Source: Ignisphaera aggregans DSM 17230
Lineage (GTDB): Archaea; Thermoproteota; Thermoprotei_A; Sulfolobales; Ignisphaeraceae
Reading direction: 5' to 3'
NCBI GenBank assembly: GCA_000145985.1
Contig: CP002098.1
Span: forward strand, 620,001-684,000
DNA length: 64,000 nucleotides
Shown: one piece after another, positions 37,993 to 62,541 of the stretch
How the letters are laid out: every line of letters begins with the position of its first letter
Position numbering within the stretch: the stretch's first letter is position 1
Notes under the pieces: generated by a model
The model's database searches: none
The model's input: only the letters and a program-made list of their open reading frames with translations
What the model was told of the DNA's origin: nothing
Program-made: the position numbers and the translations under genes

Positions 37993-39180
37993 CTAATGTG
38001 GGGAATGATCTCTGGAAAGATGTTGAAGAAGTAACTCTACGACCAACTTGAGGAAGTATGTGATAGGCCCCATTGAGAAAGTCATTAATATTGCTGGTAT
38101 AAATGTGTACAAGTTCGTAAACTCGCTTGGTATTCCCCCTCTCCACATGCTTTTAAGAAATATTGAGACAAACGGGATGGCCACATCATAGGAGATTTCA
38201 ACAAGCAGTGATCGCTTTAATTGCGATAGACGAATATCTAGCTGAGAAGATATATTCCACCTTCTTAGGTACCTTAAAGTCTGTACGACAAATACATAGT
38301 AGTCAATTGTTAATGTAAAGGGGAAGATGTAGAATAGCGATATAAACAAGAGTTCTAGTCCGTATTGCTTTAAAGCCTCATTGTTATTGTTACTTAGAAA
38401 GCTCAACTCTATGGATTTTTGAAGAAATCCCTCAAATGATCCAAAACTAAATCCTTTCAGTCCATGTGCTAAAAATATTGCTACATACCCTAGAACTATG
38501 GCTATAAGGGTGGAGAGCCCTATCGACGCTTTAGTATCAGAGAAGAACTTGCGAGGATCGTTAGACAAACCAAGAATGTTTATAGCGTCTTTCACATCTT
38601 TGGGTAACTCAGAGGATTCTCGGCAATCCCTTCTATCAAGCAACATGCTCTTATAGATTTTTGCACGTATATATCCAAATTGCAAACCAAAAACAATGAA
38701 GAGCAAGTTGAATATTATTGTTAACGCCTTTATCGACCAAATTGTAATGAAAAACTGTGAGAAGATAAACAAACTTATTAAAAGCACTAAGGCAATTACA
38801 TTAAATTTATTAAATACAACCCCTTTCCAAAAACACTTCTGTATATAGATGTCCAACTTTACATAGTACTCCATGTTTGTGTCGAACCCTGATGAGTATA
38901 TGCTTCTCAAGAGAGGGTACATAAGTAGAGAATGTAGTGGACCAGGAAGTATGAAGACTAATATCGGTATATACAGTAAAGCTATGTAAAAATCTGGCAA
39001 TACAATTAGAAAATAGAAGACTATGAGCGTCACTATAGCTAATACTAGCACTAATAGCGGTTTAAGATATCCTGGGTCACTTAAGCTTAGTTTCAGATAT
39101 AGCTTGAGCAACAAATATAACTTGGTCATAAGATACCTGAGCTTCTTTACGAGCATAGTATACAAGTATTGGGGCTTCAA
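37993..39180 (-). CDS. Polytopic membrane protein, unknown
   Basis: 395 aa with about eight hydrophobic helices: two near residues 42-85, two near 125-170, one near 215-240, and three in the last third. A hydrophilic loop around 180-215 reads LLDRRDCRESSELPKDVKDA. It has no signature of a known transporter family that I can recognise. The topology of paired helices with a long central loop recalls TadC/FlaJ-type assembly platform proteins of archaeal pili (GSP F-like), but the typical motifs are not clear. A small stalk-helix protein follows it by 15 nt. Confidence 0.6.
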   Translation of the reverse strand: MKPQYLYTMLVKKLRYLMTKLYLLLKLYLKLSLSDPGYLKPLLVLVLAIVTLIVFYFLIVLPDFYIALLYIPILVFILPGPLHSLLMYPLLRSIYSSGFDTNMEYYVKLDIYIQKCFWKGVVFNKFNVIALVLLISLFIFSQFFITIWSIKALTIIFNLLFIVFGLQFGYIRAKIYKSMLLDRRDCRESSELPKDVKDAINILGLSNDPRKFFSDTKASIGLSTLIAIVLGYVAIFLAHGLKGFSFGSFEGFLQKSIELSFLSNNNNEALKQYGLELLFISLFYIFPFTLTIDYYVFVVQTLRYLRRWNISSQLDIRLSQLKRSLLVEISYDVAIPFVSIFLKSMWRGGIPSEFTNLYTFIPAILMTFSMGPITYFLKLVVELLLQHLSRDHSPH

Positions 39181-39309
39181 TATATTAGGTTTTTATGTGT
39201 TTACTAGCTGAAAATAACAAACAGAATAGTCGAAGACGTGGCCCAAAATACTGTAGCAGAAGTGAATTAAGCTTCTAGGTACCAATTAACATCAGTATCA
39301 GGTGAAAGC

Positions 39310-39765
39310 TTGGCTACACTTAGATTAGTGATCGAAGCTGTTTATGTTCCTCCATCCAATATTGAAATCAGTATTAACGATATGGAATCGAAGCTATTAA
39401 CTTTAGAGCTGGTGATAGATCCTGGCTTTCGAATTAGAATAGCAAAGATACGCCTTCAATCAGATAAACAGTGAAGAAAGCTAATTGTGCACTTCGAAGA
39501 TGAAGCCGAAGTATTTGAAGCTCTAGTTGCAGCTTTGAATGACGTTGATAATCTTAGTAGCAAGCTCATCAAAGCGCTTAAAGAGGTAGCTACTTTTGTA
39601 ATCCTGCGTGGGCTTGAACTCGGTTTTTCACCTCTCATATTAGCTGATACTAGGTCGTTACAAATATGTATTGATTATTATAAACACAAACTCCTCATCC
39701 TCAAAGATGCCTTACAGATGTCTGCCACATGCATTTTAGCAATAGAGAGTGCTCAAGCCAAATAA
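39310..39765 (+). pseudogene. Decayed gene with in-frame TGA, upstream of HEPN relic
   Basis: A single frame reads LATLRLVIEAVYVPPSNIEI, then NDMESKLLTLELVIDPGFRI and SDKQ, a TGA at 39472, and then without frame change RKLIVHFEDEAEVFEALVA and on to TAA at 39763. The same frame extends upstream past another stop (TAA 39268) with VEDVAQNTVAEVN. An AGGTGA box stands five bases before TTG 39310. Continuous protein-like composition across the stops shows a once-longer gene. A shortened product from GTG 39487 (92 codons) is possible. No family recognised. Confidence 0.55.
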
Positions 39766-40252
39766 CCTTGATGATATTGCAAAGAGGTTTGTATGTTTGG
39801 TGAAGTCGGCTTACAAATCTGAAAAGAATAAAGAAATGTTAGACTTGCTAAGGAGGATGTACAAATGGTACTTCTATGCACAAAACGAGAAAAAGCGAGT
39901 ATGACTGGCTCGTGAATTACCTAATGATACTCAAAAATGGAAGCTGTACAAAGCATACAAAGACGATGACAATGATATATACCGCAGGACGACCATAATC
40001 AGAGGAGTAAGTGGATACAACATAAGAAATGTCTCAATAAAGCAGTTGAAAGCTTATGTCAAGAAGCCTTCAGCAAACTAGAGAGGGGAGGGTTTTAGCG
40101 AATTTTATGAAACGAGAAACAAGATAATACATGAAAGTTTGTGAGATGTAACATCAAAGTATATCAATGTAGTGTCAGAATGTACAAGAAAAATAATTGA
40201 AGAGGCACAGAACGAGGTTTGCAACATCTTGCAGTCTTGCCTTCAACAGTGA
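39749..40252 (+). pseudogene. HEPN-like gene with three in-frame stops
   Basis: From GTG 39749, 168 codons stay in one frame and look like real protein but are interrupted by TGA 39902, TAG 40079 and TGA 40142. The segments include PNNLDDIAKRFVCLVKSAYK, then KWKLYKAYKDDDNDIYRRTT and GFSEFYETRNKIIHESL. The last holds R-N-x3-H (RNKIIH), the catalytic motif of HEPN RNases. A final helical part (VVSECTRKIIEEAQNEVCNI) ends at TGA 40250. It overlaps the end of the 39310-39765 relic by 17 nt, as a two-gene operon would. It is convergent with Argonaute, 125 nt from its stop. It may be a dead toxin-like companion. Confidence 0.6.
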
Positions 40253-40377
40253 ATGTTTTTACATGGAATATCCATAGCCTTCTACAGATAATGTACAAAG
40301 CATAGTTAGAAGACCTCTACTTCCTTGATGTACGTTATCAGATCAAACATTATCACATGTTAGACAATAATACAACG

Positions 40378-42843
40378 CTACGTTACCTTTACAGGTATTC
40401 CCATTGACAGCATATAGGCTAGTATGTGGGCCATCTTTATTGGTAGAGCCAACTTATGGGTACCGGTTCTTAGGTTCCAGAAATTCAGTCTGGTAAGCGA
40501 TAGGTACTCCTCCGCAATCTTCTTCACATCGTCCTTAGAGTATTTTCTTTGCATTTCGTAAATTCTCAGAATTATTGGTCTTACTGTCCCTGGAGATTCC
40601 TCTTCACTCTCCTCAGGCCTAGAAGCCACCACTAAAACTTCGTGAGCATAGTAACCGAGGTGTTTCATTCTATATAGATATACATATGTGCCTTGGATAG
40701 GATTAGTTTTAAACCCCTTATCACCGGCAAAAATCCTCACATTACTGTCTTTAATGACTGCTACATAATCCAGAGAAGCATTGTATCTTAGTTCTCTAGT
40801 AATAACATTGAATGCGTCTAAACAACCCTTAATTTCGTCGGGGCTTTTCGGTACTCCATCTCTTAATATCACTATTCTAGTTAAACCTCTATCCCGGGCC
40901 ATTGAAACCATGTATCTTAGGATCTCGTAGTAATCATCATAGCTGAGAGTCTCTGTCCTCAAGGAAATGATCTTGGCATCTATTAGTTTTCCATAAGGAT
41001 CCAATAGAATGAATGCTGCACCTGCTACACCCTTTTTGGTTGAAACATCTAGTCCTACATACATGCTCTTTCCTTCCTGATCTGCAGGCTTGTCCAAGAT
41101 CCAAGTAAGAGGACCGGACAAAGATCCTTCATTTTTGCTCTTCTGAATCAGAAACTCAGCGTAGATTCCTCCACAGATCTCACTAAGCAAAGATCCTAAA
41201 GCGTTTTCTAAAGTCTTCCTTTCTTTAGCTTTTGGATTACGTTTTTCAAGTTCTTTAATTTTCTTTATATATTCAAAAGTTTTGTTGAATGTATCCAAAT
41301 TAACTAATTGACTATGAAAGCCCTTCATGCTAGCTACTTCTTTCGAAGCTTTATAGAACTTTTCGTTGTCAGGTATTATTATTAATGGAAAGTATCTATG
41401 CGGATCACGCACCTCGAGAGTTTTCTGTATTGTTCTCTCAAGTGAGGTCAAGCTTTCGGAGAGGTTCGCAGGATCGTAGCTGTAACTATGGCATTCATGG
41501 TCATATACCTCTATATCACCGAGATTAAAGTTGCTGAAATATGATTGCAGACTTTGTACGAATTCCTTTAGTTCTCCGATTTTCAGTGATGATGGGTATA
41601 TCACAGTTAAAATTAGTTTAATTTTGCCTGCATACGGCATAAGTCCTCTACTGCTGAAGGCAACGATCGGTGAAGCATAGTCAGGTTTTTCGTTACCATT
41701 TTTGTCCTTGTATCTCAATTTCACAACTTGATTTTTGAGCACCTTCTCGTAGTTGGATCCTGTATAGAAGTTTAGCTTTATGCCTACAGCATCTGTGTCA
41801 GAAAGCTTATACTTAATATATTTGAAATGAATACTTTTGCCAGTTAAATTCTCATAGATTCTCTTAATGTTTTCTTCAACAATTCTAACCAATTTGACTA
41901 TGTTATCCCATCTCGTCGAGGGATCAGGCCTTTGTGGTACTCCAAAGATCCGTAGTAATGATGGGGGATAGGTGAACTCTGCATCACGACCGAAGATTCT
42001 CACTTTGAAGAGAGGGTACTCCCATTCACTAGGTTCAGTTCCAACAAACCTCTTAACAACCTCATTCTTGCGAAATCTCTCAATCCAGAGATTGTAAATT
42101 GTCTGACCATTGGGCAAAACTATATCGCGGGAGAACGAGGGTTCCACACCTGTGATCTCTCCATACACATATTTTACGTCTGTCCCCATCAGCGTTAAGA
42201 CTGATGATCCTTCATATGAGTGAGCTAGCTCCAAGCACTTTTTTCTAAGCGCCTCATCGTCTCTAAGGAGGTGAAAATCATCTATTCCTAATTTTTCAAG
42301 CAATTCATCGGCTAAGGTGCGCTGATTCACAATACCATAATCGATGAATAGTATGCCGTGATACTTTTCATTGGGCGTCCCAGATGTCTCTACTATCTCT
42401 ATTATTGTTCTTTTCTTTAGATACTTACTGGGATCGTTCGGATCAAGAAATTTTCCTTGTCCTAGATATTTGAAACCTGCTTCTCTAAGAGCTGCATCAA
42501 CAAGCAAATCGAAGAAGGTTTCAATAGCAAAATATGAAGGCTTCTCACCCTCAACGCGCTTAAGTTCTCCTTTTAGAATGTCCTTTAAGCGTTCTTTTAC
42601 ATTGTTAAGTGTATCTACATCCTTTACGTATAATTTAGCAAGGCATCCATCAGTAAGCTTTACAAGTTCGTATGTAGTAGGCTTCCCGTCTAGAAGCATA
42701 TCTATGAAAAGTCCGTGAAGCCTACGCTTACACTCACTATAATCACACTTCAGGGTAGCCTCAAAGCATTCAAACGAATCCAACTCTATCGTCTCCTCAG
42801 AGCGTATACCATTTAATGTGAGGCTTTCATATGGAAATACCAT
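40378..42843 (-). CDS. Prokaryotic Argonaute, long type with complete DEDH tetrad
   Basis: 821 aa, with N, PAZ-like, MID and PIWI regions as in long archaeal Argonautes. It should bind a short nucleic-acid guide and cut matching targets. MID (about 480-560): Y497 and K498 in NEKFYKAS, Q512 in GFHSQLV and K521 fit the 5'-phosphate pocket of Y-K-Q-K type. PIWI: D599 in YVGLDVS, E631 in RTETLSYDDYYEIL (aligned to the glutamate finger), D662 in VILRDG and H806 in LPIKMAHILAYM form the D-E-D-H set needed for cleavage. Guide and target type cannot be told from sequence. Start is ATG 42843 with GAGGTG nine bases before it, and it has its own TATA-like box. It is divergent from the 475/609/958 operon. 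Confidence 0.93.
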   Translation of the reverse strand: MVFPYESLTLNGIRSEETIELDSFECFEATLKCDYSECKRRLHGLFIDMLLDGKPTTYELVKLTDGCLAKLYVKDVDTLNNVKERLKDILKGELKRVEGEKPSYFAIETFFDLLVDAALREAGFKYLGQGKFLDPNDPSKYLKKRTIIEIVETSGTPNEKYHGILFIDYGIVNQRTLADELLEKLGIDDFHLLRDDEALRKKCLELAHSYEGSSVLTLMGTDVKYVYGEITGVEPSFSRDIVLPNGQTIYNLWIERFRKNEVVKRFVGTEPSEWEYPLFKVRIFGRDAEFTYPPSLLRIFGVPQRPDPSTRWDNIVKLVRIVEENIKRIYENLTGKSIHFKYIKYKLSDTDAVGIKLNFYTGSNYEKVLKNQVVKLRYKDKNGNEKPDYASPIVAFSSRGLMPYAGKIKLILTVIYPSSLKIGELKEFVQSLQSYFSNFNLGDIEVYDHECHSYSYDPANLSESLTSLERTIQKTLEVRDPHRYFPLIIIPDNEKFYKASKEVASMKGFHSQLVNLDTFNKTFEYIKKIKELEKRNPKAKERKTLENALGSLLSEICGGIYAEFLIQKSKNEGSLSGPLTWILDKPADQEGKSMYVGLDVSTKKGVAGAAFILLDPYGKLIDAKIISLRTETLSYDDYYEILRYMVSMARDRGLTRIVILRDGVPKSPDEIKGCLDAFNVITRELRYNASLDYVAVIKDSNVRIFAGDKGFKTNPIQGTYVYLYRMKHLGYYAHEVLVVASRPEESEEESPGTVRPIILRIYEMQRKYSKDDVKKIAEEYLSLTRLNFWNLRTGTHKLALPIKMAHILAYMLSMGIPVKVT

Positions 42844-43398: not shown

Positions 43399-44826
43399 TT
43401 GTCTAAGTTAATCACGTTTAACGATCTAAGGGATTACTTCAAACAGATTTGGGTACTTAACAAACTCACATCGAAATTCCTAGAGCTCTATAACACCAAG
43501 ATAAGGTCTCTACATGGAAAACTTATTACAGAAGTTCAGGATGATGCAAAGGTTATGGTTCTAGGAGGACTTAGGTCTGACGGAACCTTTGGTGAGAATG
43601 CTTATGCAAGGTTTGTCTATGACTTTCTTGGTCTTAGGCTTGAGGATGTTCAGCGCTATGTTACTTTGGTTAGAATGGGGAGGGAGCCTGATGTTAGAGT
43701 AGTCTTAGATGAAAAGCCAGAGCACTTTAACTTTATTAGATTTATCCATTACTTGAACAAGTTATCTGAGTTTATGCTGAATAAAGCACATAGCACTGGG
43801 ATACTGCCTTCCTCAGAGGTTGTAATATCATCAGAAGATGTGATAGATGTAGATGAACTTGTGACAAATATCATTGAGAAAGCATTCGAACTTATGATAG
43901 GTATCAACAGGGTTACAACATTTGTGTTTAGTATTAGGAAGATAACATCAGAATATCTAAGAGCAACTTATGGTGATGTTCCTAACGAATTGCTGGAGTT
44001 CCTGGGGTTTTCTGAGTTATTGAAGATGGACAACATTGGGCTATGGGGTTTCAAAGACTATTTCACTAAATTAGTTCTAATTGAAAGAAGTAAATGGTAT
44101 AGTGGGAACAGATACACATATATACTCAGACCGGTAATCAATGGTATGCCACTTTATAAACAGGAACAGTCCTCTGCTTCTGGAGATACTTTAGAAAAGA
44201 TGTTTCTCAATGTTGAGAGTATCAAGCCTGAGACATTGGGAGGTGCTATCTGTAGCCTTAACACTACCATTATGATGGCTTTTGAGAATCTAAATAATAT
44301 ACGCAGATGGTTCCCAGAGACCGTCAAAGCTATTGATGAGTATTTTAATGAAGCGAGAAAGAGTCTCGAGGCAGTAGAATGGAGGCTTCCCGAGTATCTC
44401 AAGTTCGAAGCAGTTACTCACATCCTTATGTACACAGGTGGAGGAATGGACAGGAAGCCATCAACTGTTATTCCCATCATATCGATGTATGATATAATTA
44501 ACGGAATTAATGCAGTAGACGGTTACTGGGCACTGAAGTATGATGAAACCTTCATAGTTCAACAAGTAGAACACTACGTTGAGCATGAGTTAATCCACTT
44601 CAATGAGAGCAGAACTCATGGCATCTACAGATCAACCTCAAGAATCCCCAGATACTTCGCTCTCTCAGAGCTACTCAGAGATCTAATGCCAGCAATATTT
44701 CTGGGCTTAGTTGACATAATACTTCAATATGCAATCATTAGGGAATCAGAACACATTACAAGGGATATACTGGATAAGACTAAATACGATAATGCCCTTC
44801 TAATCTTCGCGAGAATGAGGTACTGA
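43399..44826 (+). CDS. Unknown protein with HELIH zincin-like motif, first gene of operon
   Basis: 475 aa from TTG 43399 (MSKLITFNDLRDYFKQIW). Soluble, mainly helical. The only motif I can name is HELIH at residues 396-400 in EHYVEHELIHFNESRTHG, which fits the HExxH zinc site of metallopeptidases. Downstream glutamates near 424, 449 and 451 could be third ligands, but no other zincin feature is clear, so chance is possible. It is followed 3 nt later by the 609-aa nuclease-like gene and then by the GHKL ATPase gene, so all three are one operon. The role inside that set is unknown. Confidence 0.7.
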   Translation: MSKLITFNDLRDYFKQIWVLNKLTSKFLELYNTKIRSLHGKLITEVQDDAKVMVLGGLRSDGTFGENAYARFVYDFLGLRLEDVQRYVTLVRMGREPDVRVVLDEKPEHFNFIRFIHYLNKLSEFMLNKAHSTGILPSSEVVISSEDVIDVDELVTNIIEKAFELMIGINRVTTFVFSIRKITSEYLRATYGDVPNELLEFLGFSELLKMDNIGLWGFKDYFTKLVLIERSKWYSGNRYTYILRPVINGMPLYKQEQSSASGDTLEKMFLNVESIKPETLGGAICSLNTTIMMAFENLNNIRRWFPETVKAIDEYFNEARKSLEAVEWRLPEYLKFEAVTHILMYTGGGMDRKPSTVIPIISMYDIINGINAVDGYWALKYDETFIVQQVEHYVEHELIHFNESRTHGIYRSTSRIPRYFALSELLRDLMPAIFLGLVDIILQYAIIRESEHITRDILDKTKYDNALLIFARMRY

Positions 44827-44829
44827 ACC

Positions 44830-46659
44830 TTGGCTATGGACTATATGGCTAAGCAGGAACAGGAGAGTTTAAAGCGAACCCAAAAGAAAAGTGAGGAGGT
44901 TGCTGAAGATAAGAAAACCGAGGTAATGAAGTCTCAACATGTAGAAAGTTTCATCCAGATTATATCTCCCCAATCCAGCAGGACCCAAACCTCTCCATTT
45001 ACAACTCTAGAAAATGTCTTAATTGTGGTACCAAAACCTTCACAGCTAGCATATCTGAAGAAAGTAAGTAAGCCGGTCTTAAACAAAGAAATGCTTGTAT
45101 CCCCAATGCAGAAACCAACTCTATTGCTAGTTTCACCGATATCAATCACAAGATTTAGACCTTCTGAACAGATAAGGATTCTAAACCTAGACAAGAACAT
45201 TTTCAGAAACCCTCTTAGTGCATCTGTTAACATGTCCATACCCAAAGTTCCACACATATCCATGCCCACTATACATCTACAGCCCTTGGAGCGTTCCATA
45301 GTTAATATAAGCCAAGCCATGAAACTGCAAACCATAGTTAGACCTCCAGAAATATATACAAAATTCTCAATACCTCAACTAGACAAAACATACACCTTGA
45401 AAATAACGTCTACGGCTCAATCAGTTCAAACGAAAGTAAAGACTATTGACTCTACACAGGAAAGAAAAATTAAGACATCTAAAGAAGCTGAGGGTGTAAT
45501 GCTAACTTCTCTCACTATACATGTACCACCATCACTTCTAAAGCTGTTGTTCAAATCGCTTAAAAAGTTCAATGTTAAAGGATTGCTCGAGGTTTCGCCA
45601 GAAAGACCTGTAATTGTTGTTGCGATAAAGTCAGCAGGACCTGAGCTGAAGTATAGAGCAACACTTCTCACAATTCTTAGAGAGCTCTTCCGCATAAAGA
45701 AGAGGTTTCCACAAACCATCGCTGCTACAGCGAGAGGTGAAACCGATATTGTTCAAAGCTACCTCATGGAGAGCGGCATCATAAAATTTATCGATGATTC
45801 TGAAGCTGATTTCCTCAATTTCTTTGGGATAAGGAGAGTTGAAGACTTTGACAAGGTAGATCTGGATAGGCTTAGGAGTAGGTTGTTAGAACATACAAAC
45901 TCGGACTTTTCATTCCTAGTGTTCCATATCAATGAAAGTAAAGTTACTCAGCTATTGAAGTATTTGAAAATGCTACGGAGCGATCTTGGCAGATCCAAGC
46001 TTGTTGTTATATGTCCTCGTAGGTTATCTCTAAAGGTTGTTAAGAAGCTTATAGAGATAATATGGGGCTTCACCAAATTTAGATGTTTCGACAAATCTCT
46101 CGATGGTTGTTTTGCTGCTGGTGAGAAAACCTTCTATGATGAACTTGAAAAGCTTTCGACAAACCCAAGTTATGCCAAGGTTAGGCATGTTGAAAACGAA
46201 TCAGAATTGCATTACCAGCTAAAGGTCTTTGTATATAGCTACCTTGTTAATAAGCTGAAGCTAGATCCAAGATATGTGAAGACAGAATATGATCTTGGTG
46301 GAGTGAAGCCCGATATCTGGGTGGAGTCCAGCCGTATTGCAATAGAGATCGAAACTCTCTATGGTACAGGTGTCACCCCCTGGAACAAGTTATATGAGAC
46401 TATAGAGAAGTACCATAGTCTTAGCGTTAATGAGGTATGGCTTGTAATTCCACCTCTTCAGCTATCACTCTTCATCGGAGATCTTTTGAAGCTGTACAAG
46501 ATATTGAAAGAGGAATATGGAGATAAAGTGAAGGTATTTACAATAAACCTAACCCAGAGGGAACTGATATCTCTAGAAGACTACATAAAGAAGTTTAGTA
46601 TGGTCATATATAGAACGATGAAAGGTAATAAAGGAGAAGATCTAAAATCGAATATGTGA
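44830..46659 (+). CDS. PD-(D/E)XK nuclease-like protein, second gene of operon
   Basis: 609 aa. The first about 215 residues are a low-structure region rich in P, S, T, K and V, unusual for the neighbourhood. Residues about 220-440 form an alpha/beta domain (EVSPERPVIVVAIKSAG, SKLVVICPRRLSLKVV). From 455 onward is a restriction-endonuclease-like fold: helix ESELHYQLKVFVYSYL, then TEYDLGGVKPDIWVESSR with D495, then IAIEIETLYGTG with E506 and E508, and later VNEVWLVIPP. The order E-helix, PD, (D/E)-x-E fits the PD-(D/E)XK superfamily with E in place of K. Starts 3 nt after the previous stop and ends 1 nt before the next ATG. Confidence 0.8.
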   Translation: MAMDYMAKQEQESLKRTQKKSEEVAEDKKTEVMKSQHVESFIQIISPQSSRTQTSPFTTLENVLIVVPKPSQLAYLKKVSKPVLNKEMLVSPMQKPTLLLVSPISITRFRPSEQIRILNLDKNIFRNPLSASVNMSIPKVPHISMPTIHLQPLERSIVNISQAMKLQTIVRPPEIYTKFSIPQLDKTYTLKITSTAQSVQTKVKTIDSTQERKIKTSKEAEGVMLTSLTIHVPPSLLKLLFKSLKKFNVKGLLEVSPERPVIVVAIKSAGPELKYRATLLTILRELFRIKKRFPQTIAATARGETDIVQSYLMESGIIKFIDDSEADFLNFFGIRRVEDFDKVDLDRLRSRLLEHTNSDFSFLVFHINESKVTQLLKYLKMLRSDLGRSKLVVICPRRLSLKVVKKLIEIIWGFTKFRCFDKSLDGCFAAGEKTFYDELEKLSTNPSYAKVRHVENESELHYQLKVFVYSYLVNKLKLDPRYVKTEYDLGGVKPDIWVESSRIAIEIETLYGTGVTPWNKLYETIEKYHSLSVNEVWLVIPPLQLSLFIGDLLKLYKILKEEYGDKVKVFTINLTQRELISLEDYIKKFSMVIYRTMKGNKGEDLKSNM

Positions 46660-46660
46660 T

Positions 46661-49537
46661 ATGTATTCCAGGTGCCAAAAGGGTTATGCTATGTCTGGAG
46701 CAGTACATGTTAAAGAGATTTTAGAGGGTTACTTAAGATCTGATATAAGAACCTTAGAATCATTAGATGGTGCTTTAAATGAAACATTAATGAATTTCTT
46801 GCGTAGTGGTGCACCCGAAAGACAATTCATATTGGAGTATCTTCAAAATGCTATTGATGCTGGTTCAAAGAATGTGAAAATAGTTCTCGATTATGATAAT
46901 GTTAGAATTCTTGTTTATAACGATGGTACAGAATTCAATCACGATGACTTTGAAAGTTTTTGTAAAATAGCTAGATCGAGAAAAGATCCCAACAAAATGC
47001 TCATTGGATATATAGGCATAGGAGCGAAATCGGCTTTTGCTATTGCAAGGAAACTCGAACTTCATTCAGGAGAGTATCATGTAACTTTCGAAGAATCTAA
47101 CATTCCAGAGGAATTATCAAAGAACTACAATCTAAAATATCTATGGATGATAGTTCCACGAACAAAGGATGAATGTTATAGCAGTAGCTGTAGATATTTG
47201 ATGAACACAGCAAGTTTCAGAACGGTATTTGTATTAGAGAATCTGACAAAGGATAAGGAAACCCTCGAGATCATTCATCGTACACTTCTGGATTATAACT
47301 ATGAATATTTTCTCGACGCTAGAACATTACTATTCATACCTGTCCATAATATCAAGGTTGAGATATGCATCTTCAAAAATGGTGTTGAAAAATGTTTGAG
47401 AAGAATAGAAAAGTTTCATGAAAAGGAGATACAAAGTGGTATACCTCATCTTAGAAAAGTTGTTGTAAAGCTAAGAGAGATATTAAGTGATAGAGAAGAA
47501 ACTGAAGACTGGCTTATCATATTAAAGGAGGTGGAAGTACCGGAAAACATTAGAAGAGACCCTATAACAGCTATATTTAAACGTGAAAATGTTGTTAGGA
47601 GACTTGTTGGTATAGCCTTTAAAACTGAGAATGACAAACTTATACCTACTAAGGGTGTTGTCAAATTCAGTATCTTTAGCTATATGCCTATAAGAGAAAT
47701 AGAATCAGGTTTTAATTATTTGTTACATGCCGATTTCCTTACAGATCCAGGACGTGGAGGAATAATCGAGAATATTGCTTGGAATGAGTGGCTTCGAAAC
47801 GAGTTGGTTAAGTTCCTTGTAGATGATGTATTGGAGGAGTTTAAACATGACGATATATTGAAATATCAGACAATGATACTCATACCTCATACATCTCCCA
47901 CCGATCCATTTATCTACAAGCTCTATAGTGAAATTATGAAAAATATTAAGGAGAAAGATCTTGTAATGACATATGATGGTTTCAAAAGAGTTACTACAAC
48001 TACTCTGCTTCCTAAAATAGTATACCAAGTCTTAACAGACGAGCAGCTTTGTTCATTGCCAAAGGATCCCTATGTTAAGAGTATTGCTCATAGAAGGGTA
48101 TATGACTATATTGTAGAAATGCTAAATCTACTTCCGCAAAATGCTAGAAATGTATTGCTAAGCTCATACATAAGCTACATGTATCTAGGACTTCGTAAAA
48201 TTATTGAAATCGGAGATGATGATACATATAAAGGTGTTAAAAGCATATACCAGATCCTGTGGCAGTATAGCAAAAGTAAAGACTTTATAAAGAACATGAT
48301 AGAATTCATAATGAATGACTATTTGGAGAAAAACGCTGCTACAGTTTATTCTATTAACAAAATGTTGAGCAATTTGATGGTCTTATCCATTAAAGGGGAG
48401 GTTAAGAAACTTAAAGATGTTTCTATTGTCCCAACATCAAAGCTTGTTGCATATCTAGCTAAGGTTCTTAGCATAGATGAATCTAAATTAAGAGAGTTAC
48501 TACAGGATATTCCCATAATAGAAGAGGATTTGATAGGCTATATAGTTAAGCTATGCGACTCAATGGGCCGTGCCCATTGTTGGTTAGACACCACAAGGTA
48601 CTTAATTGTTGAAGCCTTTGCTGATGAACGATTCTTGCAGAATTTTGTCAGTGAAAAACTATTCGAGGTACTAAAGCATGTACTAGAAGAGAAAATAGCT
48701 CAACTAGAAAAGGCGATAGAACAAAATGATGAATTGCAAATACGTGATGTTATGAAGAGGTTAGTTGAAGTATATTATCCTATTCTCAAAACTAGAAAAG
48801 ATAAACTGCGTGAGGTTCTAAAAGATAAGGTTAAAGTTAAGGTGTTGGATGACGGATTTATCGAAGTGTCAAGGGTCATGCTTCCGGAAAGTGATTGGCA
48901 TTCACTTAAAAATGTTTTGGAAACTATTGATCAAGAGCAAAATAAATTAGTTAACACAGGTTTTCATCCTAGTACAGATTATGAAAAACTTAGGTCTGAA
49001 ATCAAGTTTGTAGATTTAGAATTCTACCAAGGTGTTAACATAGAATTATTGAAACAATTCTTATTGGATTTAGGTGCCGAATTTAGAGATTCCGAACAAA
49101 GGTTTATCGAGTTTAAGAAGAGGATTAGTGAAGTTCTCTCTGTAGAAATTGCTAGAGTGTGGTTAGCAAAATCAGGATACTTTGTGTCCTCTGGATCTGC
49201 AAAGAGTGGCTGGGACATAACAGCGATGCATAAATCAGAATCTAGCATAGCTAGGGTTGAGGTTAAGGGTACTACTGACAAAGAGTATCGCGGATCTATA
49301 GCACTGAGATGCGATGCAAAGGAATTTATTGATTGTAGAGAAAAGTGTGATAAAAACGAGAAATGCCTCATAATCATTGTAGAAAATGTCGCCAAAGATC
49401 CACAAATCAGGGTTATCAATATATGTGAGCTACCCAAAGAGATAGTTGAAAAATATAGAATAGAACTACCTAATGATGTATTAGAGCATACCAAGCCTAT
49501 TAGATTCAATGAATTAAGAGGTATACAACCCTATTAA
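46661..49537 (+). CDS. GHKL (Hsp90-like) ATPase with C-terminal DUF3883-like nuclease domain
   Basis: 958 aa. An N-terminal GHKL fold carries the N-box EYLQNAIDAGSK (E59, N63, D66), G1 box YNDGTEF (D88, G89) and G2 box GYIGIGAKSAF, as in Hsp90, MutL, MORC and sacsin-like proteins. It should bind and hydrolyse ATP and clamp. A middle of about 500 helical residues follows. The C-terminal domain reads ARVWLAKSGYFVS, SGWDITAMH (D852), IARVEVKGTTDKEYRG (E867, K869): a complete PD-(D/E)XK-like set of the NOV/DUF3883 kind. It is the last gene of the operon. ATG 46661 is given; ATG 46691 (MSGAVHVKEILEGYL) is also likely. I infer an ATP-gated nuclease. Confidence 0.85.
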   Translation: MYSRCQKGYAMSGAVHVKEILEGYLRSDIRTLESLDGALNETLMNFLRSGAPERQFILEYLQNAIDAGSKNVKIVLDYDNVRILVYNDGTEFNHDDFESFCKIARSRKDPNKMLIGYIGIGAKSAFAIARKLELHSGEYHVTFEESNIPEELSKNYNLKYLWMIVPRTKDECYSSSCRYLMNTASFRTVFVLENLTKDKETLEIIHRTLLDYNYEYFLDARTLLFIPVHNIKVEICIFKNGVEKCLRRIEKFHEKEIQSGIPHLRKVVVKLREILSDREETEDWLIILKEVEVPENIRRDPITAIFKRENVVRRLVGIAFKTENDKLIPTKGVVKFSIFSYMPIREIESGFNYLLHADFLTDPGRGGIIENIAWNEWLRNELVKFLVDDVLEEFKHDDILKYQTMILIPHTSPTDPFIYKLYSEIMKNIKEKDLVMTYDGFKRVTTTTLLPKIVYQVLTDEQLCSLPKDPYVKSIAHRRVYDYIVEMLNLLPQNARNVLLSSYISYMYLGLRKIIEIGDDDTYKGVKSIYQILWQYSKSKDFIKNMIEFIMNDYLEKNAATVYSINKMLSNLMVLSIKGEVKKLKDVSIVPTSKLVAYLAKVLSIDESKLRELLQDIPIIEEDLIGYIVKLCDSMGRAHCWLDTTRYLIVEAFADERFLQNFVSEKLFEVLKHVLEEKIAQLEKAIEQNDELQIRDVMKRLVEVYYPILKTRKDKLREVLKDKVKVKVLDDGFIEVSRVMLPESDWHSLKNVLETIDQEQNKLVNTGFHPSTDYEKLRSEIKFVDLEFYQGVNIELLKQFLLDLGAEFRDSEQRFIEFKKRISEVLSVEIARVWLAKSGYFVSSGSAKSGWDITAMHKSESSIARVEVKGTTDKEYRGSIALRCDAKEFIDCREKCDKNEKCLIIIVENVAKDPQIRVINICELPKEIVEKYRIELPNDVLEHTKPIRFNELRGIQPY

Positions 49538-54333: not shown

Positions 54334-54704
54334 GGAGATGTTGTCTGAAACTGATCTAACAACACTATAAATATCTATAGCAGGTGAACAGGCTTCTTCG
54401 CTATATCCGATGATCGCAGATGCTAGTTGGGTACAGCTATCAGAAACCTCTACAGGCTACATACCTCTAAAAGGAGTCTCTGCACACCTTAACTTCTACA
54501 AGAGCTATCTAGGGTTCCAAATATATCACTGCAATTAGCTTTTCTAGAGAGTCCCACTAAGATGTAAGGTATAGACTGGATGAGAGGTGGCTGAACTTCA
54601 TCAGAAGAATGAAAGGGAATTAGTACTTTTTTGTAATGCTAACTTACGCTAAAGTGTCGCTACTTAAAATCGAGTTTTGTCGACTAGACACTAGAGGTAA
54701 GGAA
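54334..54704. other. Divergent promoter region with a weak ORF
   Basis: Between the divergent PRTase and methyltransferase genes. A 42-codon plus frame (ATG 54410, MIADASWVQLSETSTGYIPL onward to TAG 54536) has protein-like composition but no partner or ribosome binding site; it could be a remnant. The rest is AT-rich and must hold the two promoters. Confidence 0.3.
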
Positions 54705-56810
54705 ATGTCTTGGCTTAGCTTACAATTAAAACCTGTCATATCTTTGCTTCAGAGCAGAGTTGCCCGTGTAAATGCTGAAAAGGTTAATAAATGGATCGAA
54801 GTGCAGGGATTGGGGCGGGCTACGGATCCAAAATATGTGCTAAGCGTACATCTAGCATTCAATGTTTTTGCTAGGCTGCTAATCTATGAGAGGCATGTAG
54901 GGGAATTGAGGAACAGCTTAACGCTCCTAGATATTGCAGATTCTGAGAAAGATGTGCTTCAAAGTTCTGCACTTAAGCCTTATGTGCTAGATGAGATATC
55001 CGACGAAATTCTAGAGGACTCAATTAGAGATGAGATTTTCCGAAGGGTGACCACCATAGCTAAGAGGTATAGCTATGCAGACGCTGTAAATGATGAACTG
55101 GGTAAAGCATTCGAAGAACTCATACCCAACGCTGAGCGTCGAAAGCTAGGCCAGTTCTTCACACCTATACCAATAGCGGATCTAATGGTCGAATACATAC
55201 GTAGGAATGTGGAGAGGGGGAGGATAGTTGATCCAGCTGTTGGAACCGGCAGATTTATACTTAGGTTGATGCTGAAGAGTGGGATCTCTAAGGACTACAG
55301 AATTACGGGTATAGACGTAAGCCCCCTAATGATATTGCTCACCGCTACAAACATATCCTATGTCTCCGACCTTAAGCGTTTAGAGCTTATAGTGGGAGAC
55401 ATGTTCGACCTCGATGATGCTATAAAGGAGAGCGATGCCATAATATGCAACCCTCCCTACAGTAGGCACCACGAATTAGAGCCCGACTATAAGAGGAAGT
55501 TACAGGAGAAAGTTAAGGCTGCTAGTGATGTGACGCTATCAAGGTACTCAAGTTTCTTCGCATATGCTCTGCTCTACCTCTCATCCCTATTAAAGAAGGG
55601 TGGATATGTGTCGTATATATGCCCCCTAGAAATATTTGAAGCAAATTATAGCGATGTTGTAAAGAGGTATGTAGCTGAACACAATCTACTTGAAAGAGTG
55701 ATTGTATTCGACGAGGATTCGTTCATCTTTCCATACGCAGAGAACGCTGCTACCGTAATTTTCTTGCACAAAGATTCGCCTACAAAAGTGTACTTTGTGA
55801 GAGTTAAAACCATTGAGGCAAGCTCCTTAGAGAAACTTCTGGAAGCTGTAGAAGAGGGAGACTTTGGATGGTGCTCTACTAAGATTGTAGATATCTCTGA
55901 ACTTCTGAATACGAGCAATTGGAGTCTGTACTATGTTAAAAGGGCTATCCCCATCATTGAGGAGGTGATACACCATCCCCTTGTTGTCTCCTTCAAGCAC
56001 ATTGCAAGAATAATGCGCGGAATAGCTACAGGAGCCAACGATTTCTTCTTGCTTAACGATGAAGAGGTGAAGCGATGGGGAATCGAGGAGGAGTTCCTCA
56101 GACCAGCACTAGTAAAAACAAGGTGGGTTCTGAACTATGTTTATGATAGAGAAGCATTTAACAGATTGAGGAATGCGAATGAGAAGTGTTGGCTCTTCTA
56201 CTGTCAAGTACCCCCTGCACTGCTGAAGGGGAAAAATGCATACAAATATGTAAGCTATGGGGAGAGATTGGGATTACCTAACAGAAGCTTGATCCGCTTA
56301 AGGAGGATCTGGTATCAAGTTGAAAAACGGGAACCACCGCCAATAGTCTTCACGTACCTCTCCCGAGGAAGACCAAGGTTTATACATAATGAAGTCGGTG
56401 CTCTACCACTCAACACATTTCTATGCATTTATCCGCTACCAGAAATCTCAAAGGACGAAGTACTCCTCAGAGCATTACTGGCCTATCTGAACTCAAACAT
56501 AGCTTTAGAGCTACTTAAAATAGTTGGAAGGAGGTATGGAGGTAGCACATTGAAGCTAGAGCCTAGAGAACTTGACGAGTTACCTGTACTAGATGTAAGA
56601 AAGCTGAGCCGCGAAGAAGCGGAGCACTTAGCTCGATTATTCGACGAGCTCAAATATGCTACTAGAGGTGATGAGGAATTAAAGTCAAAAATTGACAATG
56701 CCATCCTCTCCATTTTAAGGAGGTACAGCGCAGTACAACCAAAGAGAACTCTGGTGGATTATATGAAAAATATGAGGGTGGGAACAGCTTCACTAGTTAA
56801 TGTCCTCTAG
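54705..56810 (+). CDS. N6-adenine DNA methyltransferase of a restriction-modification pair
   Basis: 701 aa from ATG 54705, which has AGAGGTAAGG just before it; the frame is open 23 codons further up. Motifs: LGQFFTPIPIADLM (G149 to P154), DPAVGTGRF (from D176, SAM loop) and CNPPYSRHH (N249-P-P-Y252, catalytic). The C-terminal about 300 residues (IMRGIATGANDFFLLNDEEV, PLNTFLCIYPLPE, GRRYGGSTLKLEPRELDELP) are the TaqI-like/type IIG-type target recognition region. The arrangement is gamma-class adenine methyltransferase. It overlaps tail to tail by 14 nt with the endonuclease gene. It should protect the host's sites from that enzyme; the recognition site is unknown. Confidence 0.93.
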   Translation: MSWLSLQLKPVISLLQSRVARVNAEKVNKWIEVQGLGRATDPKYVLSVHLAFNVFARLLIYERHVGELRNSLTLLDIADSEKDVLQSSALKPYVLDEISDEILEDSIRDEIFRRVTTIAKRYSYADAVNDELGKAFEELIPNAERRKLGQFFTPIPIADLMVEYIRRNVERGRIVDPAVGTGRFILRLMLKSGISKDYRITGIDVSPLMILLTATNISYVSDLKRLELIVGDMFDLDDAIKESDAIICNPPYSRHHELEPDYKRKLQEKVKAASDVTLSRYSSFFAYALLYLSSLLKKGGYVSYICPLEIFEANYSDVVKRYVAEHNLLERVIVFDEDSFIFPYAENAATVIFLHKDSPTKVYFVRVKTIEASSLEKLLEAVEEGDFGWCSTKIVDISELLNTSNWSLYYVKRAIPIIEEVIHHPLVVSFKHIARIMRGIATGANDFFLLNDEEVKRWGIEEEFLRPALVKTRWVLNYVYDREAFNRLRNANEKCWLFYCQVPPALLKGKNAYKYVSYGERLGLPNRSLIRLRRIWYQVEKREPPPIVFTYLSRGRPRFIHNEVGALPLNTFLCIYPLPEISKDEVLLRALLAYLNSNIALELLKIVGRRYGGSTLKLEPRELDELPVLDVRKLSREEAEHLARLFDELKYATRGDEELKSKIDNAILSILRRYSAVQPKRTLVDYMKNMRVGTASLVNVL

Positions 56811-57621
56811 AAGCTTTATCTAGGAGCTTCAATCCTTCATCAGTTATTCTGAGATTTCCATTAACAAATTCCGCCATGGGCCACAGCTGCCCCATCTCGT
56901 CAATTAGAACCCTTCCTCGTATATCTGGAAGGGGGTTAAATTCTCCAAATAGTACACCATACTTCAAGCATGAGATGTAGTATGTCATCTTTTTCGTCTT
57001 TCTATCAACTTTAGCCTTCACTCCTTCTATAGACTCTCCGATCCTTTTACGCTCTATAAGGTTGCGAACAGCACTAAATGTTGTTGCATATGCTCTATCG
57101 TAAAATGTTTGTACAATTACTATTTCCTTATTGAAGTATGTTACCCATTTAATTAGAGGTTCAAGATCCTCCTCTTTAATAGTAAACGTAGGACCCAGTA
57201 TAGAGGTCTTTCTACGCTTCTTTCCTTGGTACTCCAGCATTTTACCTACATGCCATTTGCTCACCTCTACCTCCACACCAAAAAGTGCTTCCTCCACCAC
57301 TTTATCAGCTTCACTATTAGGGACATCCATCAGGTTATCCATTATACTACCCCATCTCTGCTTCAACTCCTGATAGGTATTGGAGTCGAAGACTAAGAGG
57401 TCGGGTCTTTTTCCGTGGAGGTACATTCTCTGAAGTCTCTGGTAATACCTAGCATACTCCTCGAAGCTGAAAGAACCAGCTCTCGAAACACCATACCTTA
57501 CTGCAACATATCTCCCTGTATCATTGATGGCTTCAAGAACTCTATCTTCAGACCACGAACCCATGGACCAATTGATTAGAAAGTCAACGCCCCTAGGTTT
57601 AGGAATCTTCGGTTTTTTCAT
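56797..57621 (-). CDS. Type II restriction endonuclease-like partner
   Basis: 274 aa. RPDLLVFDS (D74) followed by ALFGVEVEVSKW (E117, E119, K122) fits a PD-(D/E)XK active site, here P-D-(x)n-E-x-E with a lysine nearby. The helical N-terminus, basic middle (KRRKTSILGPTF) and C-terminal segment (DIRGRVLIDEMGQLWPMAEF) resemble the AccI-type group in general look, but I cannot confirm this. The gene is convergent with and overlaps the methyltransferase by 14 nt, the usual geometry of many type II systems with opposed genes. Start is ATG 57621. Confidence 0.75.
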   Translation of the reverse strand: MKKPKIPKPRGVDFLINWSMGSWSEDRVLEAINDTGRYVAVRYGVSRAGSFSFEEYARYYQRLQRMYLHGKRPDLLVFDSNTYQELKQRWGSIMDNLMDVPNSEADKVVEEALFGVEVEVSKWHVGKMLEYQGKKRRKTSILGPTFTIKEEDLEPLIKWVTYFNKEIVIVQTFYDRAYATTFSAVRNLIERKRIGESIEGVKAKVDRKTKKMTYYISCLKYGVLFGEFNPLPDIRGRVLIDEMGQLWPMAEFVNGNLRITDEGLKLLDKASRGH

Positions 57622-57797
57622 AGCTCTACACTTAAGCTACGTTATAGATACCCCTCTTAATATTTTTATCTTCTTGTCTACTATTTCACATCTCTTTACT
57701 TCTTACCATGAATATTTTCACACTACCTTAGAGATAAGATGCAAATATCCAGCATCTAGCCACTATATCTACCCCTATTATAGTTCCTAGTCTAGCT

Positions 57798-59099
57798 TTA
57801 TCTGCTTTGCTCCAACATCTGCTGAACCACTGTGTATACCAGTCTCGGATGTTTTGTGTGTATTGGTATAAGTTTCTTTGGCTTCAATATATCTACTATG
57901 TTTCTCAGCTCATGTGGATAGTAGTGTCCTGAGAATCTTGCTCTATATATCTGTATCCCTAATGTATATAGCCATGTTATAAGGGTCTTCTCCTCAACCT
58001 CAAGTTCTGTTTCTAGAGGTTCTGGTGTTGTTAGAATTGCTATAGCGTTCCTCGGCAGCTCCTCTCCCCAGAGTCTCATCTGCCTAAGCATCTCCAGAAA
58101 ACTCACAGGTTCTTGTATCAATAGAAAGTTTTCTGGTGTTCTAAAAACATCTTGTTTTAGACCTACATACTGTAGTGGTACTGTAGTGGGTTTCTCTAGC
58201 TCGATTGCAATTGCTATTCTAGATAAATCTATGTTGTTTGTATTGCTTGTTTTGAGCCACTTGGGCAGAACATCGATGATTCTAGGTGATGCAATGGTGA
58301 TGGTTCTTCCACTAAGTAGTGCTAGCTCAGATATCGCTGTAAATAGTTCATAGTCTAGAGGATCTATCGATATAATTACCAATATATTCTCCATAAGAAT
58401 TCTATTCATTATATTTCTAAACTCTTCAGAACCTATAGGAGTCTCTATTCCACCAATATTTGTAGCCTCTAACAAAGCTATATCCAGATTCATCGAATCT
58501 ATAGCTCTCTCTATATTCGACAATGTATCAATCCTAGATCTCAGCGGGCTATCAACCCTGAGATCCCCACTATAAAACAATGTTTTGCTGTATCCCTCAT
58601 ATAGAAAAGCATATGATGGATAAGCACTATGGCTTACAGGTATAGGAATAACACCATGTTCATCCATATGATAAGCACTAAACTCCTCAATCTTTATATT
58701 TAGTCTATGGGGTATCTCAGCAAGCCATGTAGATGATCTTCTATACCAATCCTCAATAACCTCTAGAATATCTATAGATGGGACATATACTTTTACCCCT
58801 GGTGGAAGTGCTCCAAGTAATCCAAGATGATCTAAATGGAAGTGAGAGATATAGATAGCATCTATATCCTCAAATATGTTTAGCGGTGGTATAGCACCAA
58901 TACTCCTCAGCTCATTTATACCAAGAGGCTGGATTCTCCCACGATAATATTTTCTAAGAACCTGGAATCTAATACCATTATCAAAAACAATCTTTCTATC
59001 TCTATCTTTAACCAGTACACAGTTACCACCAATCTCCCCATAACCACCATAGATCTCTAAAGTTAGAGAGTCTTCAGATATTGTTAGCTGAGGCTTCAT
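57798..59099 (-). CDS. Beta-CASP/RNase J-like metallo-beta-lactamase protein
   Basis: 433 aa. YGGYGEIGGN (17-26) and HFHLDH (86-91) are the RNase J-like start and the metal-binding H-x-H-x-D-H motif. Further metal ligands appear in LFYSGDLRVDSPL and near the end SGHYYPHELRNIV and LIPIHTKHPRL, where the last histidines match motif A-C of beta-CASP nucleases. It should cut RNA or DNA, 5'-3' or endonucleolytically. It is the last gene of the DUF499-like/helicase operon: its ATG overlaps the helicase stop by four bases (ATGA). That linkage suggests a nuclease arm of that system. Confidence 0.88.
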   Translation of the reverse strand: MKPQLTISEDSLTLEIYGGYGEIGGNCVLVKDRDRKIVFDNGIRFQVLRKYYRGRIQPLGINELRSIGAIPPLNIFEDIDAIYISHFHLDHLGLLGALPPGVKVYVPSIDILEVIEDWYRRSSTWLAEIPHRLNIKIEEFSAYHMDEHGVIPIPVSHSAYPSYAFLYEGYSKTLFYSGDLRVDSPLRSRIDTLSNIERAIDSMNLDIALLEATNIGGIETPIGSEEFRNIMNRILMENILVIISIDPLDYELFTAISELALLSGRTITIASPRIIDVLPKWLKTSNTNNIDLSRIAIAIELEKPTTVPLQYVGLKQDVFRTPENFLLIQEPVSFLEMLRQMRLWGEELPRNAIAILTTPEPLETELEVEEKTLITWLYTLGIQIYRARFSGHYYPHELRNIVDILKPKKLIPIHTKHPRLVYTVVQQMLEQSR

Positions 59100-62000
59100 C
59101 CACCTGTACCCTCAGGTCTAAATCTATATCTCTTAACACTAACCTCTCTCCACCTCATATTATTTACAGGGTCTTGAATTGCTAATATTCTAGGACTCTT
59201 TGTACCAATTCCATAGACTATATAGAGCCAATACTTATCACCCTTCTCTCTAGCAACATTAAACTCTGCTTCAGTAAGCTCTACCTCTAGATCCAGTCCC
59301 GATTTCCCCTTAACCTCTATAAACCTTATCTCACCAGTTCTAGGATCTCTACTAAAAATATCGAAATGCTCCCTCATGCTAACATCCTCTGGAATTCTTC
59401 CAGATTTAATCTCATACTCCATAGCTATCTTCATAGCCTTCTCCTCTATCTCCTTAACCATAACCGGTGTAGGTATAGCACCCTGAGCAGCTTCAGAGGG
59501 GGTGGTAAAGATTATTGCACCTAGATACTCCATCTTATCGCTATAGAGATCAAGATTATTTGGTCTAGGCTCCCAGTATTGATGATAAGCACTAAAACCA
59601 AGTCCCTCAACCCTAGATATATATTCTCTAAACTCCTTCAGAGCCTCAGACACAACACTCCTTAGAACAATCTTTGACGCACTTATTTTAAGAGACTCTA
59701 GGAATTCATTTGGAATAGAGTATTCCTGTATAGCAGATACAATATTATTTTGAGAAGAAGCTACAGTAATTATTTCAAATAGTTTCCTCCCCCTGATAAA
59801 CTCCCTATCATTATTCTTTACACCAACACCAATAACCTCTGAATATATGGGTCTATCTCTAAAGAATACCATAACCCTAAATAGGTGAAGCTCCTTTAAA
59901 CCTTCTAACTGTGCTGAAGATAATAGGTATACAGGTTTATTGTCAGTATTTGGAAGAAGCGAATTGATATTATCATAAATATCGTATATGTTGTCCAGTT
60001 TTGATGTATCTACATATATTCTATTTCCATCAATTTTAACATTAAGCTTTCTTAAACTTACAATAACTATGAATAGATCCTTAAACACTCTCTCAACTTC
60101 ATTTCCACGAAAATCACCAAGAATATCACGAAGTATTCTCTCAATTCTTATTGTAAGTCCTTTTCTAGCTAATCCAATTCTCTCAAGACTCTTCTTCAAA
60201 GATTCTAAAGCACTTATGATACTTTTGATATAGCTCTCTAGACCTATACGACCCTCGCGTATATATGTTAGCAAAGCCTTGTATTCACTATATTTTGGAA
60301 CTCCCTTCTCAGTATCAATTGGAATAGTGATATGTCCTTCCTCTGTCATCATATCTATCACTACCTCCTCTCCTATAGGCACCTTAGATTCTTGTAGTGA
60401 GCGTCCAAGTGCTAACAGCTTCTTGTATAGAATATCTAGAACATCTTTATCACTCCTTATATCTAGGAATATTGTATAGCTGGTAACATCTCTCTCCTGC
60501 CCAAGTCTCCAGACTCTTCCAAGTCTCTGCTCTATTTTGATAGGGCTCCAAGTAGGTTCATAGTTTATTATAATATTTGCTACCTGTAGATTTAGACCCT
60601 CAGAAGCAACATCTGTAGAAATAACAACCTTGATACGGCCTTGACCCAAATATTTCTTTAAATCCTCTATATCAGGATTTCTCCTTTCTCTCCACCCAGG
60701 AATCTCTATCCTTTCACCAGTAATGAGAGCTGCCTCCTTTGCAATATCTGGCATCTCTATAGAGAGCTGTCTATAGATATACTCAGCAGTATCTCTATAC
60801 TCAGTAAACACAACAACTTTCTCCCCCCTCAAAACATGTTCCTCAATAACTCTAAACACTGTTCTAAGCCTACTATCACCACGTCCAACAATACTATTGG
60901 CATAGCTTACAAGAGTCCTAATTATCTCAACATCTCTATCATTGATTAGAGGGGCACATTCTTCAGCAAATCTATTGATAATCTCATCAGGATTCTTCTC
61001 CTCTTCATCATAAATATCACTATAATCCTCAAATCCGAGTCCTAGAAGAGCATCAGCTATACTCCTAGCCTCTTCATCAAGTTTAGCAACATCTAATGAA
61101 GGTGCTCTGCCTTTAACTACCATAGCTCTTTTGCTTATTATCCTCTCAAGAGTTTTCATTGCTGCATATGGACTTGAAGAAGCTCTTTTTGCTATGAGTG
61201 CAAGTAGAAGTGGTAATGCTTTTGGCTCTTCACCAACATATTCATGATACTCTAAAAGTTTGTCTCTAAGAAATTCGAATAGAAGTTCATTAAATTTCTC
61301 CTCCTCTGGAGTGGCTTTTACAACTCTTGCAATAAATCTTGCATTTTTAAATATGAGTCTATGTTCATACACATCATTTATATCCATCTTAGTTCTACGT
61401 ACAACAATAGCATCACGTGTAAGGCTATAGAAAGACTCATTATCTAACTCCTTCTCACCCCCAATAAGATATGGATCCACAAGCCTTAGCCTAGATATAT
61501 AGTCTGCTACATACCCCCTATGTGGTGTAGCTGACAATAAAATTACATTACGATTAGCAACCTTAGCCAACTCCTCTACAAGTTCATATCTCTGTGTAGC
61601 ACTCCTTTGACCAGATCTTGTTTTTCCAACTCTATGTGCTTCATCAACTATAACAATATCCCAATCAACACCAAGTATCTTCGATTTATGTGGTTCTCTC
61701 TTCACAAGATCTATCGATGCTAGATACCATCCATCGGGAAAACCCTGGCGATGATATGCATCAATAACCTTTCTCTCTATGACTTTAGCTAGAACTCCAA
61801 AACGCTTAAGTTCTGATCTCCACTGCTCTACAAGGATTCTAGGTACAAGGATCAGTATTTTTCTAGCTCCATCTCTCTTCTCAAGCATTTTAGCAATTAG
61901 TATTGCCTCAATGGTTTTACCAAGCCCTATCTCATCACCAATCAATATCCTTATAGGTCTACGAAAAGCTAGCTTAAATAATAACTCTACTTGGTGTGCA

Positions 62001-62179: not shown

Positions 62180-62537
62180 TTACTATCTTACTATACCAGA
62201 ATATAGCTTCAAACTCCCCTATACCCACAATAGCATCGCCAAGCTGTAAAGCCTTTGAAGAACTCTTTACACATTGTCTAAAACCTGTAAAGATTACAAG
62301 TCTCCTAAAAATATCCTCTGCCTGTGGCCCCTCAAGATATATAGTCTTTCCCGATCTACTCCTCTTTACAGAAGCATCAAATCTCTCAAGAAAACTAGAA
62401 ACAACATCATATTCACAATAAGCGCTAAACACTCTACTACCAATATTATCATAGAAATACACAACTTCAATAGGATTTCTATGCTTTCTACTTCTAGTGA
62501 AGAAACGTATTGTAAATATCTTTTCTGTCTCCCCCAT
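62103..62537 (-). CDS. Hypothetical 144-aa protein of the DUF499-helicase operon
   Basis: ATG 62537 (MGETEKIFTIRFFTRSRKHR) has a GAGGAG box before it and lies 4 nt after the upstream stop, so it is preferred over ATG 62585. The protein is basic at the N-terminus and has an alpha/beta middle (EVVYFYDNIGSRVFSAYCEY, GKTIYLEGPQAEDIFRRL). It ends in a helix (VCRIAKAFRILHRID). No family recognised. It is locked between the DUF499-like gene and the helicase by overlap on both sides, so its product is probably a partner of theirs. Confidence 0.7.
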   Translation of the reverse strand: MGETEKIFTIRFFTRSRKHRNPIEVVYFYDNIGSRVFSAYCEYDVVSSFLERFDASVKRSRSGKTIYLEGPQAEDIFRRLVIFTGFRQCVKSSSKALQLGDAIVGIGEFEAIFWYSKIVNAYENEGFWGVCRIAKAFRILHRID

Positions 62538-62541
62538 AGAA

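Follow-up and report, generated by a model that had tools for sequence, protein, structure and literature searches.

An unnamed archaeal gene pair, probably an anti-invader nuclease module, in a defence island of Ignisphaera aggregans

The E-x-E sequence is the BamHI form of the PD-(D/E)XK active site of nucleases. Among the described systems closest to the locus reported here, Gabija consists of two genes, an ATPase and a nuclease, whereas Tiamat (PADLOC) consists of the single gene for TmtA. GHKL ATPases of the MORC/paraMORC type belong to prokaryotic restriction-modification (R-M) systems (Iyer 2008, PMC2292703), and the DUF3883/NOV_C domain is restriction-like and found in SNF2-DUF3883 proteins (Anantharaman 2013, PMC3710099). 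The locus lies in a 64,000-nucleotide (nt) stretch of Ignisphaera aggregans DSM 17230 (contig CP002098.1, positions 620,001 to 684,000), called hereafter the window, and contains three genes:

43399-44826, plus strand: g1, a helical partner protein of 475 amino acids (aa), with the nuclease gene immediately 3' of it at most homologous loci
44830-46659, plus strand: g2, a predicted PD-(D/E)XK-type nuclease of 609 aa
46661-49537, plus strand: g3, a putative TmtA (Tiamat)-family GHKL ATPase of 958 aa with a C-terminal NOV_C domain, a separate module directly downstream

Like Gabija, g1 and g2 form an adjacent pair with a nuclease-type member in a defence island, but they match no ATPase family and no GajA or GajB model. 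With the BamHI-like nucleases g2 shares the order E...D...E-x-E (ten of its homologues have the classical D-x-K), but it differs from them in having no profile or fold match, an extra helix carrying E457, H461 and K465, a long tether, and the partner g1. The DUF3883/NOV_C domain is present in the C-terminus of g3 and in a HmaA-like helicase of the window, but not in g1 or g2, and the likeness of g3 to Tiamat has no bearing on these two. For g1-g2 no name was found in PADLOC, Pfam or the literature searched (subscription papers, preprints and DefenseFinder being outside its scope), and for g2 none in NCBIfam or PHROGs either. A previous sequence-only reading of the DNA, which knew of no named system for the three proteins, was therefore right for the pair and wrong for g3.

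The g1-g2 unit, to which a third gene, gX, is added in some genomes (g1-gX-g2), is probably an unnamed archaeal nuclease module directed against invaders. The full reading, in which g1 and g2 form one functional unit of innate archaeal immunity and g3 is separate, is given a probability of about 0.58. What argues for it is a patchy and fast-evolving spread, a strict active-site pattern, a tight pairing, the island context and the lack of any viral carrier in the searches made. The second protein would be a PD-(D/E)XK-type DNase in which a long flexible tether carries the catalytic domain at its end. The first, and gX, which resembles its middle part, would be helical partners that most likely recruit or restrain the nuclease. 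Recognition of something foreign by g1 would then lead g2 to cut the DNA of a virus or plasmid. We thus infer a nuclease activity for g2, a partner role for g1 and a defence function for the pair.

The search for homologues took in roughly 200 relatives, along with 398 genomes from the phylum, and the fetched loci were analysed by gene calling and profile annotation. Directly 5' of g2, and on the same strand, g1 was found in 33 and gX in four of the 48 g2 occurrences, the others having different genes or contig edges upstream. The gaps in front of g2 were mostly of -62 to +30 nt. Pairing was found in Thermoproteota, Ca. Alkanophaga, Archaeoglobaceae, an unclassified euryarchaeal bin and Bacterium HR23, and it is retained across phyla at 15-40% identity, between proteins of about 300-480 aa (g1) and 450-880 aa (g2). 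Of the 39 loci with a readable gene downstream of g2, 23 have that gene on the opposite strand. The spread is patchy, at 38 of the 398 sampled genomes of the phylum and two of the 11 genomes of the genus, and the g2 proteins of these two are about 30% identical.

The gX proteins, 208-238 aa long, form a family whose genes immediately precede that of the nuclease in four archaea distant from one another:

L163:7467-8120: gX, in the order g1-gX-g2
L054:8620-9246: gX, in the order g1-gX-g2
L165:7817-8503: gX followed by g2, no recognised g1 (Natrialba)
L174:6767-7483: gX followed by g2, no recognised g1 (Lokiarchaeota)

These proteins are mutually related (pairwise phmmer E-values, E, of 8e-8 to 2e-25) and hhalign aligns them to the central part of g1 (94%, E 1.5e-7). 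None has a Pfam match above cut-off; that of L054 shows a weak TFIIE-alpha-like winged-helix match near its C-terminus. In two of the genomes another gene closely follows the g2 homologue: a gene with a proteasome-subunit domain (E 4.5e-17) starts 1 nt past it in the unclassified euryarchaeal bin (L163:10106-10885), and a Schlafen/AlbA_2 gene 2 nt past it in the Lokiarchaeota bin (L174:9468-10616).

Two segments of g2 are needed for what follows, the first defined by a predicted local distance difference test (pLDDT) score and the second by the alignment of homologues:

44926-45516, plus strand: disordered low-complexity tether of g2 (residues 33-229), pLDDT below 50
46198-46353, plus strand: nuclease motif span of g2, E457xxxH461xxxK465...E486...D495...E506-x-E508

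The protein is predicted to consist of an N-terminal helix, some 200 disordered residues, an alpha/beta middle domain and a C-terminal nuclease-type domain, residues 230-600 being folded in the predicted structure. A low-complexity region ahead of the nuclease motif had already been seen in the sequence-only reading, and the model bears out a long disordered N-terminal part. A first alignment of g2 had five invariant columns (E457, H461, K465, E486 and D495). Among the 37 readable sequences of a larger set, H461 and D495 were present in all, E457 and K465 in 36, and E486 in 35. The catalytic pair was E-x-E in 27 of them and D-x-K in the ten others, and the mixed form was never observed. At the level of sequence, this coupled exchange is the pattern expected of an active PD-(D/E)XK site. 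In the model, helix 459-475 is followed by strands 496-498 and 503-507 around the acidic motif, so that D and (D/E)x(K/E) would lie on a beta-hairpin with the E helix upstream, as in PD-(D/E)XK enzymes. The assignment, made earlier from the E helix, the D and the E-x-E, holds by the order of the motifs and the secondary structure predicted, in a site conserved through the 37 homologues. The family has no match to any nuclease in Pfam, NCBIfam, PHROGs or the PDB profiles. The middle domain was also considered as a degenerate archaeal AAA+ ATPase, from a Foldseek hint; this was dropped because profiles gave it no backing, hhalign against ten PF01637 proteins encoded in this genome yielding a probability below 1%.

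The predicted structure of g1 has a confident helical core, at about residues 10-220 and 270-330, much of 10-220 scoring a pLDDT above 90. Its fold had no counterpart by Foldseek among solved or viral structures, where the lowest E were 1.6 and 0.62, and no significant match was detected in Pfam, PADLOC or PDB, by structures and profiles. Conserved positions include G56-G57, Y191, G203 and G217. A HELIH motif had been singled out earlier in this protein:

44584-44598, plus strand: HELIH codons of g1 (residues 396-400), not conserved, within the low-confidence insert 336-418

The letters are indeed there, and as a meaningful motif they did not stand. HELIH or HExxH was found in one of 46 g1-family proteins; the insert has pLDDT below 50 and forms no ordered helix. 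Because the motif is missing from the 45 other proteins and sits in a disordered insert, it is a chance match (of 203 open reading frames, ORFs, that are 350 aa or longer in the fetched loci, five contain HExxH), and the reading of g1 as a metalloprotease was dropped. A single-protein genome scan with g1 gave no matches. A 64-aa ORF at G000:C1:697547-697663 (L044:11554-11748), surrounded by small genes, is 56% identical to the g1 N-terminus; it is likely the remnant of a second g1 copy, some 33 kb from the first.

The surroundings of the pair contain the following genes:

40378-42843, minus strand: prokaryotic Argonaute (pAgo; PIWI), island context, outside the pair
54636-57621, both strands: N6 DNA methylase (plus) and AccI-like restriction enzyme (minus), island context
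59096-63972, minus strand: Hma-like system, comprising an SNF2 helicase-NOV_C (HmaA-like) and a DUF499 ATPase, island context

A HmaB-like methylase gene lies just beyond the window end. Since pAgo, TmtA-like, AccI-like R-M and Hma-like genes stand within about 25 kb, the locus is a defence island, as had been proposed. G007, a genome of the same genus, shares the Hma-like genes; a g1-g2 of its own lies some 10 kb from them, but on the opposite flank of the cluster (its g2 is only about 30% identical to that of the window). In genome G035 an N6/N4 DNA methylase and a restriction enzyme are encoded just upstream of g1-gX-g2. In genomes having g2, three strong DNA methylases were found no more than 15 kb from it, for 0.24 expected (P 0.0015), and two, for 0.22 expected (P 0.02), when the window's own genome was removed. 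This proximity test is supporting and not decisive, because its limits, 15 kb and 40 bits, were chosen after the hits had been seen.

Three further observations concern the island itself. An association of pAgo with g1-g2 was considered and set aside, as it was found in this window only. The divergent pAgo (821 aa) adjoins a 395-aa protein, apparently multi-membrane-spanning (37993-42843), for which ten genomes of the genus gave no match; this protein may be an effector partner of the kind found in the SiAgo system. The Hma-like system stands beside an AccI-like restriction enzyme in the window (56797-63972) and also at L046:1983-5018.

Several points weigh against an immune role of the pair. 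Neither g1 nor g2 of the window is matched by a PADLOC model, and the g1 family gave two isolated weak matches only (E 0.014 and 0.039). Foldseek, among the matches shown for g2, returned no PD-(D/E)XK protein, only weak AAA+ look-alikes. The methylase test rests on few loci and on limits set late, and elsewhere the neighbours of g2 are mixed, with many ordinary genes. Finally, in the f7 family, one contig of which is labelled Pyrodictium delaneyi, g2 has no adjacent g1 and the gene order is constant in several genomes (L051, L053, L060), which looks like stable inheritance. They supply the strongest argument for a role other than defence.

The immune reading has two main rivals. The pair could encode a genome-maintenance nuclease, for repair or recombination, and its partner, with an accessory spread arising from loss and transfer. 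The solo g2 of f7 would fit, as would the HerA/NurA and uracil-DNA glycosylase (UDG) repair genes found among the neighbours at some g2 loci. We hold it to be unlikely, given the strong divergence and very patchy spread within the genus, the R-M, pAgo and Hma neighbours, and a pairing kept tight across phyla at an identity so low, which is usual for conflict systems. The second rival is a toxin-antitoxin-like pair, in which g2, once freed from g1, would damage the cell's own DNA, for plasmid maintenance or suicide upon infection. A two-gene operon with the partner gene before the nuclease gene, tandem g1-like copies at L065, and HEPN/MNT pairs near some g2 loci are consistent with this. Both proteins are, however, large, PADLOC toxin models have no convincing match to g1, and plasmids yielded a single match; this rival appears less likely still than the first.

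Carriage by mobile elements was rare. No g2 was found in viral contigs, phages or PHROGs, and of 72,556 plasmids one matched, through a haloarchaeal fusion protein of 1403 aa whose C-terminal third is a g2-like nuclease (L104:6908-11119). The fusion gene lies downstream of a PLD/NgoFVII-like nuclease gene, with orc1/cdc6 and integrase genes adjacent. Such a setting, together with the g1 remnant amid small genes (G000:697547), might suggest that g1-g2 is cargo of integrated plasmids, serving the element in competition with other elements or in replication. This is a still more doubtful proposition, against which stand the negative viral searches and the lone plasmid.

There remains the gene g3, which the sequence-only reading had joined to g1 and g2 in one ATP-driven clamp exposing two nuclease domains. 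Its domains are as follows:

46814-47095, plus strand: GHKL ATP-binding region of g3 (E59, N63, D66, G116/G119/G121)
49178-49417, plus strand: NOV_C/DUF3883 domain of g3 (D852, E867-x-K869)

Matches above the Pfam cut-offs were obtained for the N-terminal HATPase (HATPase_c_3, 2e-9; SACS, 3e-8) and the C-terminal NOV_C/DUF3883 domain (1.2e-4), and the listed residues of the ATP-binding region are invariant across five aligned homologues. The earlier description, an Hsp90/MORC-type ATPase fused to DUF3883, was thus correct for GHKL and NOV_C, and imprecise in 'MORC-type': g3 shares the GHKL ATPase and an R-M/nuclease neighbourhood with prokaryotic MORC/paraMORC proteins, but its closest solved relatives are sacsin and the N-domains of Hsp90/TRAP1/HtpG. 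Its ATPase half matches the TmtA model PDLC03972 of PADLOC (E 5e-51) and six further TmtA models, a NOV_C-type C-terminus is a feature of TmtA models as well, and relatives of g3 in the same order match them at both ends. Unlike these models, which are 1063-1782 long, g3 has 958 aa and comes third in a tightly packed row of ORFs. Judged by its sequence, it fits best as a compact member of the TmtA/Tiamat family, and the protein and its domain combination are already known.

The spacing that had suggested a joint machine was confirmed: by the ORF calls the three genes share the plus strand, with 3 nt between g1 and g2 and 1 nt between g2 and g3. Their start codons are predictions (TTG for g1 and g2), and a second in-frame ATG of g3, at 46691, fits the N-termini of the homologues about as well as the first; a start there would make the g2/g3 gap 31 nt. 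These gaps, and the resemblance of both g2 and g3 to DNA-defence proteins, are in favour of a single three-gene machine. In contrast, g3 directly follows g2 in one of the 39 readable loci, that of the window. GHKL-type homologues of g3, present in few genomes of the order, have neither g1 nor g2 beside them elsewhere (G053, G151, G168 and G088), g1-g2 recurs without g3, and the TmtA models matched by g3 stand alone. Because g3 follows g2 only here and no homologue lies beside g1 or g2 elsewhere, the outcome that the sequence-only reading had itself named as refuting, a trio conserved together in no other genome, is the one observed; the three genes as one unit were rejected, and a clamp with two nucleases is very improbable. 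g3 is a defence gene in its own right within this island, perhaps co-transcribed with g1-g2.

Two observations bear on g3 relatives only. In two contigs of G053 the TmtA-like gene is overlapped at its end by a gene of about 200 aa, of no assigned family, which is absent beside g3 of the window:

L068:6577-7194: overlapping gene of G053
L069:3049-3654: overlapping gene of G053, its product 43% identical to that of the other

A region joined to g3 by an iterated profile as a second copy (59096-62179) was rejected, as PADLOC and Pfam identify it as an SNF2 helicase having only NOV_C in common.

Returning to the nuclease module, a wider claim is tentative: g1-(gX)-g2 may be an undescribed immune system of much of the Archaea (Thermoproteota, Archaeoglobaceae, Alkanophaga, haloarchaea and Lokiarchaeota) and at least one bacterium, with a helical sensor or partner of new fold, a tethered PD-(D/E)XK DNase in two versions, E-x-E and D-x-K, and in some genomes an extra gene 1-2 nt downstream. 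A 2026 survey of 7747 archaeal genomes described archaeal immunity as poorly characterised and called for archaea-specific systems, nearly a third of the genomes having no system beyond CRISPR and R-M (PMC12988326). The three-gene model teaches that a tight gap in one genome is no proof of one machine. Being mainly archaeal and missed by the models searched, g1-g2 is a direct candidate for archaea-specific immunity, and its profiles and conserved residues make the candidate testable.

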